A stretch of DNA of 64,000 nt from Methylomonas sp. ZR1 (GTDB lineage Bacteria > Pseudomonadota > Gammaproteobacteria > Methylococcales > Methylomonadaceae): contig NZ_RCST01000001.1 in the NCBI RefSeq assembly GCF_013141865.1, positions 3,906,001 through 3,970,000 of the forward strand. Direction: 5' to 3'. Numbering within the stretch: position 1 is the stretch's first letter; every line of letters starts with the position of its first letter. The position numbers and the translations under genes are program-made. Of this stretch, positions 6,463-16,208 are shown one piece after another. Under the pieces are notes generated by a model. That model worked only from the letters and a program-made list of their open reading frames with translations, was not told the DNA's origin and made no database searches.

Positions 6463-6951
6463 TCATAACCATTGTTTTAATAAACTTAATATGCCAGTTT
6501 TGTTTATTACATAAATTACAAATACAGCTCCGCAAATATCGGCGATCAAATCCGGCAAACTAGCAGCGCGATAGGGTACCGTCATTTGATACCCCTCTTC
6601 AATTACACCCGACAATGCTGCAACTAAAAAAGGGGTAGACATATAAGGTATCAATGTTTTGCCGTTAAGACAGAACGAAACGAGACAAATCAATAGGGCC
6701 AACATTCCAAAAGCTACAAAGTGAGCTAATTTATCGAGCCCATATATTTCCCCCATGAGTTGGGCTGGGGGCTGTGACGACTCAGTCAATAAGATCCCCA
6801 TCCAAACAATACTGAGCAGTATGAAAAGTATTGCAAGTCTTCGATTACCTTTAAATGATTTCGTCATTGATTTGTTGATTTGGGATATAGACTCTATATT
6901 GGCTGAAACCGCTGAATATGTCGTTTTCTTATTTATTGGCGCGATCTTCAT
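6463..6951 (-). CDS. VanZ-like family membrane protein
   Basis: With the start taken at ATG 6951 the protein has 162 residues. It has about four membrane segments (RRLAILFILLSIVWMGILL; LAHFVAFGMLALLICLV; a third near IPYMSTPFLVAALSG; a last at DICGAVFVIYVI) and the family signature DKLAHFVAFGML plus a conserved E in SGVIEEGYQ. This start is preceded by GGAG five bases upstream and overlaps the stop of the upstream open frame in ATGA; an upstream in-frame codon at 7038 would run into the dead HEPN gene. VanZ-like genes are common in exopolysaccharide and exosortase loci, where their role is not established. The last 20 or so residues contain a final hydrophobic helix, so the gene seems complete. 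Confidence 0.8.
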   Translation of the reverse strand: MKIAPINKKTTYSAVSANIESISQINKSMTKSFKGNRRLAILFILLSIVWMGILLTESSQPPAQLMGEIYGLDKLAHFVAFGMLALLICLVSFCLNGKTLIPYMSTPFLVAALSGVIEEGYQMTVPYRAASLPDLIADICGAVFVIYVINKTGILSLLKQWL

Positions 6952-7535
6952 GAGGCTCCGAAGATTGACGGTACAATTTCGGGTTTTCCAGAGTATCTGT
7001 AAGCAGTTGGATTGTATAATTGTTGCCAGAATAACCAATATATTAAAGAAGGTAACACACCTACTTTTTCCGTTGGTTTTGACTTATCCAGGAAAGCGTC
7101 GTGTTCCTGCCATTCTTGCAGTACTTGTAAAATTGCAGGCAATAACCTCGAGCCAATAGCATCCTGCAATCTGCCGAAACGGAATACTAGTTGATCGAGT
7201 GTACGAACTTCCGCATCAATTAACTCCTGGATTGCGAGATCTTTTATGGCGGGGAAATTAATAGCTTCCTGCCAAGCTGCATGCAAGCTAGTCTGATGCT
7301 GCCAACACTCCTGTGATGCTGGGCAAAGTTTAAATTCGATGCCTTCTTGTTTATTCATAACGGGATGGCCGTCTGTTCCGCGATACGCTGAATAGGCTGT
7401 TGCTCTTCCCCTATTTGCCGGAGCAAATACTAGGTAGAGACGCTGTTCGCCCAGTGCCTGTTTGGCTTTAACCAGAAAACGCAGTTTGGCAACCAAAGTT
7501 TTTTCAAGATTTTGATTAAATCCTTTTACATACAA
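6948..7535 (-). pseudogene. Fused remnant: nucleotidyltransferase C-terminus plus HEPN (HepT-like) toxin
   Basis: The 195-codon open frame is two dead genes joined. Residues 1 to about 70 (LEKTLVAKLRFLVKAKQALG and on to KQEGIEFKL) match the C-terminal end of MntA-type nucleotidyltransferases. From about residue 72 it matches the HepT-like HEPN partner (TLDQLVFRFGRLQDAIG, EKVGVLPS). The HEPN RNase motif R-N-x3-H, expected in the stretch LYNPTAYRY, has become Y-N-P-T-A-Y, so both catalytic residues are gone. The frame stops soon after (KPEIVPSIFGAS), short of a normal HEPN C-terminus. The missing N-terminal half of the nucleotidyltransferase lies beyond the inserted element at 7536-7670. Family assignment is from recalled patterns, not from a search. 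Confidence 0.65.
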
Positions 7536-7670
7536 GAGGACCTCTAAAAATTAAAAAACCTCCTTCTCCTTATTTGGGGGGAAGGTTGGGATGAGCGGAT
7601 TAAAATCACTTATTTACACCCCCTCACCCTAACCCTCTCCCGGAGGGAGAGGAGATTTTTAGAGGTTCCC
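7536..7670. mobile_element. 135-bp MITE-like element inserted in the nucleotidyltransferase gene
   Basis: The ends are near-perfect 16-bp terminal inverted repeats: GAGGACCTCTAAAAAT at 7536-7551 and ATTTTTAGAGGTTCCC at 7655-7670, which match at 14 of 16 positions when one is reversed. The element is flanked by the 4-bp direct repeat ACAA (7532-7535 and 7671-7674). Inside are two GGGAGAGG-type palindromes in opposite orientation (about 7559-7598 and 7620-7654). Removing the element plus one ACAA rejoins the reading frame of the broken gene as DIDLYVKGFNQNLEK, exactly as expected of an intact nucleotidyltransferase. No coding capacity, so it would have been moved by a transposase elsewhere. Confidence 0.75.
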
Positions 7671-7801
7671 ACAAATCTATGTCTCAGCCACGTCTAGTAT
7701 CATTTGTACTAGGGCCAAACAATTTGCAAACTTGCTTGCGCTCCATACACGTCAGCGGCAATGCTCTTTAAGATGTCGGCTTGTTGTTGCGTTAATCGCA
7801 T
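7671..7801 (-). pseudogene. MntA-like nucleotidyltransferase, N-terminal remnant
   Basis: From ATG at 7801 the frame reads MRLTQQQADILKSIAADVYG, like the N-terminus of MNT-domain antitoxins. At about 7718 a frameshift moves the homology to the next frame, which reads LFGPSTNDTRRG, then a TGA stop (7684-7686), then DIDL. This is the GS-x-x..RGGDIDL nucleotidyltransferase active site with the Ser position altered and one Gly codon (GGA) changed to TGA. The coding sequence then hits the inserted element at 7670 and resumes at 7535. Three separate lesions (frameshift, stop, insertion) show that it is dead. Order antitoxin then HEPN matches the usual operon. Confidence 0.6.
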
Positions 7802-8464: not shown

Positions 8465-8500
8465 CCCCTCAACCCAACCCTCTCCCGCAAGGAGAGGAGG
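8465..8500. repeat. GGGAGAGG-type palindromic unit (single)
   Basis: The tail CCCCTCAACCCAA is followed by a hairpin CCTCTCC-CGCAA-GGAGAGG. It belongs to the same family as the units at 7559, 7620, 11043, 11141, 11612, 11680, 16117 and 16174, but has no inverted partner beside it. Confidence 0.7.
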
Positions 8501-11042: not shown

Positions 11043-11176
11043 CCCCTCACCCCAGCCCTCTCCATGAGGGAGAGGGGGAATACCGGTATTTTTATTAGCT
11101 AGACTAAATTAGGATCGCCCCATCTAGATCGGAAAGATAACTCCCTCTCCCCCCGGGAGAGGGCTGGGGTGAGGGA
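11043..11176. repeat. Inverted pair of GGGAGAGG-type units, upstream of the DUF559 gene
   Basis: Unit 1 (11043-11077) is tail CCCTCACCCCAG then hairpin; unit 2 (11141-11176) is hairpin then tail CTGGGGTGAGGG. An 18-base stretch of unit 1 (11046-11063) is the exact reverse complement of one in unit 2 (11156-11173). The spacer is AT-richer. The DUF559 start codon lies about 20 bases after unit 2. Confidence 0.8.
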
Positions 11177-11559: not shown

Positions 11560-11713
11560 CGACTGCATGGGTGCACGAGGCTGGGCAATGTCGGGCGTAG
11601 TTGACCAATAAACTCCCTCTCCTGATGGAGAGGGTTGGGGTGAGGAGAATTAAATAAGGTGAATTTCCTATTTTTATGTTCCTCACCCCCTCCTTCTCCC
11701 GTGATAGAAGGGG
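11541..11713. repeat. GGGAGAGG-type repeat cluster after the DUF559 gene
   Basis: The 16-mer AACTCCCTCTCCTGAT occurs twice, at 11541-11556 and 11611-11626, as a 70-base direct repeat. The second copy goes on into a full hairpin-tail unit (to 11647). An oppositely oriented, more diverged unit follows at 11680-11713 (CCTCACCCCCTCCTTCTCCC). The right edge continues as AATTTTTAGAGCCC, similar to the end of the element at 7655-7670. Confidence 0.7.
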
Positions 11714-16116: not shown

Positions 16117-16208
16117 CTCCCTCTCCCTCCGGGAGAGGGCTGGGGTGAGGGGTGTAAATAATTGATTTTAATCTCCCTCATCCTAACCTTCTCCCGGAGG
16201 GAGAAGGA
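16117..16208. repeat. Inverted pair of GGGAGAGG-type units after hemE
   Basis: A hairpin-tail unit (16117-16152, hairpin around CCCTCCGGGAG, tail CTGGGGTGAGG) faces a tail-hairpin unit (16174-16208, CCTCATCCTAACC then TTCTCCCGGAGGGAGAA). The orientation is the same as inside the element at 7536-7670, and the pair fills the gap between hemE and the YjbQ-like gene. Confidence 0.8.

Follow-up and report, generated by a model that had tools for sequence, protein, structure and literature searches.

The interrupted gene and the inserted unit

The window, i.e., the whole stretch of 64,000 nucleotides that was analysed (G000:C1:3906001-3970000, from a Methylomonas genome), carries on its minus strand a gene that is split by a short insert (Table 1). 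In the relative G028 the uninterrupted ORF has 101 aa and overlaps a second ORF of 169 aa, a layout that may resemble that of MNT/HEPN modules. As judged from its sequence, the interrupted gene is likely a nucleotidyltransferase; this identity is not firm, since the sole Pfam match of the G028 ORF, to the Polbeta nucleotidyltransferase, is below threshold (20.4 bits vs a cut-off of 26.9) and NCBIfam gave none for it. The 195-aa remnant in the window, corresponding to the 3′ piece, has no match in Pfam or NCBIfam. Upstream of the junction, the window copy contains a frameshift with in-frame stops, and a TGA where the carriers G031 and G011 have GGA; thus, it is a pseudogene regardless of the unit. 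The statement of the first-pass annotation that excision of the unit restores a reading frame is therefore correct across the junction, but does not extend to the rest of the copy, with its frameshift, stops and TGA.

Table 1. Features of the interrupted gene and of the inserted unit (positions in the window)
Feature	Position	Strand	Sequence	Basis and remarks
3′ part of the interrupted nucleotidyltransferase-like gene	6948..7535	-		Continues into sequence that forms a separate downstream ORF in G028
Target duplication, left copy	7532..7535		ACAA	Sequence; relatives without the unit have a single TTGT (G028, G013, G025) or CTGT (G063), minus strand
Left terminal inverted repeat	7536..7551	+	GAGGACCTCTAAAAAT	Sequence; GGGGACCTCTAAAAAT in G031 and G011
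Inner palindrome 1	7562..7585		CCTTCTCC...GGGGGGAAGG	Sequence
Inner palindrome 2	7621..7652		CCCTCACCCTAACCCTCTCCC core	Genome pattern search; opposite orientation to palindrome 1
Right terminal inverted repeat	7655..7670	-	ATTTTTAGAGGTTCCC (plus-strand letters)	Minus-strand reading GGGAACCTCTAAAAAT
Target duplication, right copy	7671..7674		ACAA	Sequence and alignment with relatives
5′ part of the interrupted gene	7675..7801	-	MRLTQQQADILK...	Alignment; own frameshift and stops

The unit is 135 bp long (7536-7670) and its 16-bp inverted ends, read directly from the sequence, match at 14 of 16 positions (15 of 16 in the units of G031 and G011); length, ends, ACAA duplication and all coordinates agree with those first proposed for it. 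The 16 bases of the right end are the first 16 bases of an IS5-family element found in the congener G002. The unit has no transposase gene: there is room for at most 45 codons, and none of the listed ORFs of at least 60 aa lies inside. Folding gave a z of -5.9 for the interior, relative to mononucleotide shuffles, and of -2.77 for the whole unit folded as DNA, relative to dinucleotide shuffles. ATTTTT follows palindrome 2 on the plus strand, and a putative role as terminator, once inserted, is possible. On the minus strand, positions 7565-7651 show a weak, sub-threshold Rfam match to the Poribacteria-1 RNA (25.3 bits vs a gathering threshold of 74.2); it may be that certain candidate RNA families are mobile palindromes.

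Filled and empty sites in the relatives

A search of the unit against 101 genomes gave near full-length matches, with 93-96% identity, in G031, G011 and G024, and the alignment placed the unit at the identical base of one gene in these three genomes and in the window. The gene remnant, used as query, located the gene in further genomes. The gene is uninterrupted, with one copy of the target, in G028, G013, G025 and the more distant G063, so that the sister genomes do provide the empty sites for which the first-pass annotation had suggested looking. The duplicates are still identical in the window, G031 and G011, and have drifted to TTAT/TTGT in G024. In a tree built on the 258-bp flank the four carriers, whose mutual identity is 86-96%, form one clade with a support of 0.973. 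Since filled and empty sites align exactly and the carriers form one clade, a single old insertion, in an ancestor shared by the window's species and the three relatives, explains the distribution. The earlier claim that this copy transposed as a defined unit is thus borne out by filled and empty sites of the same gene, exact to the duplication.

An IS5-family element as the likely mover

An IS of 1213-1215 bp is present 14 times in G002, and each end of every copy differs by at most one mismatch from the end set used for scoring, a set that itself includes one G002 end. Perfect 4-bp duplications, a length that falls within the range known for the IS5 family, flank 12 of the 14 copies (TTAA four times; TTCA, TAAT, TTTA, TTAT, TGTA, TTCT, GCTC and AAAA). 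The transposase, of 343 aa, matches DDE_Tnp_1 (PF01609) and DUF772 (PF05598), both above the Pfam cut-off, and reaches 285.6 bits with the NCBIfam IS5 model NF033581 (cut-off 140). At least 7650 database proteins pass an E of 0.001 against it (8000 candidates scored), the best named match among those listed being from Methylomonas. G038 and G063 contain related IS, of 1344 and 1236 bp respectively, that lie between TTAA duplicates, each of them having a TAG within the frame matched. The further point that had been suggested for checking, a transposase gene that shares the ends and makes a 4-bp duplication, was thus found in a congener; the window's own genome gave no IS with such ends, and its sole transposase match at 1e-10 is 34% identical and has different ends. 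On sequence grounds, an IS5-family element is the likely mover of the unit.

The interior of the window's unit has nothing better than a 9-base match (E 0.58) to the interior of the G002 IS. G002 also holds three 131-bp MITEs with these ends, one duplicating TTTA (L067), one TTAA (L332) and one without duplication (L333). They have the layout and length class of the window's unit and a palindrome 2 of quite different sequence, and these three suggest that the layout can be retained when the cargo is exchanged. Other IS5-like transposase loci occur in the genus (L250, L251, L252, L255 and L256), with ends such as (A/G)GGAACCTCTGAAAAAC; one locus with ends of this kind is located in the window's genome, at C1:2892102.

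Other copies in the window's genome and in relatives

Further copies with the same ends, the existence of which the first-pass annotation had left to be checked, were found in the window's genome and in relatives. At genome position 2612309 an own copy is bordered on either side by TTAA, and its flanks, once joined, align to G009 with no gap at the junction; in G024 and G018 the alignment has gaps close to the junction, and these two were excluded as proof of an empty site. The own copies at 121338 and 3895776 have both ends and no 4-bp duplication. With a loose criterion of up to 5 mismatches of 16 per end, paired ends are present in 30 of 35 unit loci from the own genome, the relatives and L227, the last being a 132-bp unit, detected solely through its end in a gammaproteobacterial bin, that has the same ends and palindromes and no duplication. 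The 4-bp duplication is present in 11 of these 30 paired copies, vs a mean of 2.5 and a maximum of 7 with shuffled flanks; the copies are not independent, as some represent one ancestral insertion in several species. Elsewhere in the window's genome, the second contig, of 59.6 kb (L429, G000:C2), has stretches like plasmid type IV secretion and conjugation genes.

Twelve of the 101 genomes contain the exact 17-mer end GGGRACCTCTAAAAATT, 115 times in all (35 in G038, 33 in G036, 17 in G002, 14 in G048, nine in G012 and one in each of seven genomes), and the reversed control gave none; the window's genome has no exact copy because the ends of its units differ slightly. A short pair was found in 21 of the 30 loci fetched, 17 of the 21 with a 4-bp duplication. 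These pairs correspond to 20 units, since L411 and L416 are one unit; 16 of the 20 have a duplication, including two that are the window's insertion site in G031 and G011.

The same ends across bacterial phyla

The 17-mer was also sought in one genome per species, over 84,980 species, giving at least 110 stretches; with the addition of six viral contigs, 116 loci with 124 exact ends were obtained. Judged by coordinates and sequence, G036 and G038 appear to be the same genomes as G128 and G127 of this set, so that the 17-mer set from the 101 genomes overlaps it. The counts hold among the matches listed and are no measure of abundance. Accepting a partner end with up to 5 mismatches of 17, the 116 loci yield 56 short units (36-320 bp) in which the end has an inverted partner; 31 of the listed ends have no partner, and 30 more have none and meet the end of the contig or of the stored piece within 320 bp (among them L177, L188, L191, L192 and L144). 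Unit and end counts are not additive, because several units have two exact ends. Assembly breaks within multicopy units or IS would be expected to leave such truncated ends, and some of the partnerless ends will be due to chance.

A 4-bp duplication at the exact boundary was found in 32 of the 56 units and not in the other 24, vs 4.5 as the mean of 2000 trials with shuffled flanks, in which 13 was never exceeded, the units partly sharing genomes and not being fully independent; a match over 5 bp was found in none of the 56. By their record labels, the hosts of the 32 units with a duplication comprise Gamma-, Beta- and Alphaproteobacteria, Planctomycetota, Spirochaetota, Fibrobacterota, Verrucomicrobiota/Lentisphaerota, Nitrospirota, Clostridia, Desulfobacterales and one viral contig; a single host label may be wrong, since nearly all hosts are metagenome bins.

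When the window's unit is included, 53 of 57 interiors have at least 20 bases (the four shorter ones were left out of the comparison), and single linkage at E 1e-3 divides them into 22 groups; 34 of the 53 are hairpin-prone, with z at or below -3 relative to mononucleotide shuffles, a lenient control. The groups include TTCGACAGGCTCAG..CGAACGG, the GTCATTCCGGCGAAGG type, TCATTGCGAGGAGC and the CCCTCACCC type of the window, which are presumably palindromes dispersed through the genomes of many bacteria. In several phyla, unrelated interiors are found between the same ends, and this is the unusual part of the system.

ORFs inside the ends, clustered for L114-L199 (86 of the 116 loci), revealed no common transposase. 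As candidates for an autonomous IS, only L119 and L174 start an IS5-like ORF inside the end, which then runs into the contig end; a stricter motif scan over L114-L229 returned L174 alone. The G002 transposase, used as query, has matches at 1e-10 in five of 30 host genomes, three of which are labelled as methanotrophs. G102 (Phycisphaerae) encodes full-length relatives; the better one, L297, has ends that are 2 and 3 positions off the set, and its flanks, TTAA/TTTA, are no matching duplication. Given five matching genomes of 30 and these imperfect ends and flanks, the mover is not shown for the majority of distant hosts.

Association of the palindromes with the ends

With up to 2 mismatches allowed, the CCCTCACCC core matches 33 times in the window's genome (reversed control 0), and these matches were merged by eye into 25 loci; of the 23 examined, four have both ends, one has a single end and 18 have none, at up to 3 mismatches. 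In this genome most of the palindrome family thus lacks such ends, which limits the earlier statement that at least one carrier of it transposed as a defined unit. Near these end-less palindromes the best end match has 5-7 mismatches of 16 (4 at locus 911034), and end erosion, considered as their explanation, left no clear vestige in what is a weak test. At one end-less copy, 4089130, the spacing of the flank matches varied among the 37 genomes searched. Further palindromes of the CCCTCACCC family are located in the window at 8466-8486, 11044-11175, 11626-11646 and 16131-16195, all without an IS5-type end at up to 3 mismatches.

Other genomes gave different proportions. G128 has 167 matches to the pattern TTCGACANGCTCAGNNCGAACGG; a sample of 30 exact matches from the first contigs listed corresponds to 26 loci, since four pairs are neighbours in a single unit. 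Within about 200 bp, and with at most 4 mismatches of 17 allowed, an end is present at 18 of these loci and both ends at 14. Counted as single matches, 22 of 30 have an end and 18 of 30 both, vs 4 of 59 control windows. In G113 (Fibrobacteres), sampled over the 382 kb of the first 20 contigs, the TCATTGCGAG core is found with an end at six of seven loci (eight cores), at up to 3 mismatches (0 of 354 control windows), with five paired units, one of them having a perfect duplication. In 225 kb of G110 (Thiohalomonas), TCATTCCCGCG has an end at none of nine loci (12 cores), and L137, a unit of the same genome, has both ends and a duplication. These ends are one route for such palindromes, and probably the main one in some genomes; they are not the only state in which the palindromes occur.

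Origin of the unit

The unit with its ends and duplication, the filled and empty sites, and the congener's IS, which shares its ends and duplication length with the unit, argue for a non-autonomous MITE, moved in trans by an IS5-family DDE transposase and inserted once, with the palindromes as cargo and the mover not found in the genome today; a probability of about 0.93 is assigned to this reading. Against it count the negative search for such an IS in the window's genome, the two own copies with both ends and no duplication, the drifted duplicates of G024, and the limited share of copies with a duplication, 11 of 30 in the group and 32 of 56 across phyla. A separate IS with the same ends would supply the transposase, which would put the non-autonomous unit into an A/T-rich 4-bp target, here ACAA, and repair of the staggered cut would duplicate the target. 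The insertion would have occurred once, in the ancestor of the window's species and the three relatives, inside the nucleotidyltransferase-like gene, which would then have decayed along different paths in the carriers; the inner palindromes would have ridden along as cargo, and the mover would once have been in the genome and since been lost.

The palindrome pair could instead have moved by a REP-like route of its own, through a single-strand tyrosine transposase, the outer ends being incidental. The 18 of 23 own-genome loci without an IS5-type end would agree with this, as would the Thiohalomonas sample, in which another palindrome has no end at nine loci (12 cores); however, the insert in the window stops at the inverted repeats, with the 4-bp duplication outside them as in the IS, and an equal duplication length is seen in units that combine these ends with unrelated interiors. 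This route, contradicted by the boundary for the window's copy, is improbable there, and may apply to the end-less copies. A unit that was ancestral, and precisely lost from the relatives without it, is still harder to accept: some DDE elements can excise precisely, but exact losses would be needed in the lineages of G028, G013, G025 and G063, and the carriers form one clade. The lowest credence goes to a static terminator-like palindrome formed in place, on behalf of which the ATTTTT after palindrome 2 on the plus strand can be cited, a candidate terminator after insertion; such an origin, also dismissed by the first-pass annotation, is refuted by the empty sites facing filled ones with a duplicated ACAA, and copies with the same ends exist elsewhere.

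With a single insertion of a trans-mobilized MITE as the preferred reading for the window, a broader and tentative one, to which we give a little less than even odds, is that one IS5-type end set may be a shared vehicle across bacterial phyla, having spread several palindromic repeats as interchangeable cargo. If so, end-less copies would be remnants, or would have been kept for their hairpins after end erosion. Small palindromic repeats are present by the dozens in many bacterial genomes, and their spread is often unexplained; here one such repeat has been caught as the apparent cargo of a well-delimited mobile unit, for which both filled and empty sites are known, and the spread of palindromes becomes testable, family by family, by means of the 17-base end and of empty sites.

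Comparison with known systems

The unit has the traits of a MITE, being short and without a transposase gene, with inverted ends, a duplication with an empty site, and a partner IS in G002. It resembles IS5-family IS (NF033581; DDE_Tnp_1 and DUF772) in its right end, 16/16 with the G002 IS, and in the 4-bp, mostly A/T-rich duplication, and differs from them in the missing transposase gene and in an interior unlike that of the IS. Tn3-derived TIMEs have ends of about 38 bp and a 5-bp duplication, whereas here the ends are of 16-17 bp and the duplication of 4 bp, with a 5-bp match in 0 of 56 units. In REP/RAYT elements the palindrome itself is the boundary and no duplication is formed; unlike them, the window's unit is bounded by an inverted repeat and the duplicated ACAA. 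REPs and BIMEs, as presented with REP-associated tyrosine transposases in PMC2817692, share with the unit the alternating palindromes, many per genome; the unit is set apart from them by its terminal inverted repeats and its target duplication.

In the open-access literature, no prior description was found of the end and palindrome cores as exact strings. MITEAba12 of Acinetobacter is 113 bp long, has 16-bp imperfect ends and a duplication in 36 of 90 copies, and is reported from Acinetobacter and a single Moraxella genome. Its predicted mover is a resident IS whose ends are similar; it differs from the window's unit in its 9-bp duplication and in its ends (PMC6382973). QMITE2 of Coxiella and Chunjie of Geobacter are MITEs with many partial copies; they differ in their dimensions, with 7-9-bp repeats and 23-29-bp ends for QMITE2 and a length of 178-235 bp for Chunjie (PMC10969869). 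QMITE2 copies that have lost ends and duplications are said to look like REPs (PMC10969869), and in this they are similar to the end-less palindromes described here.
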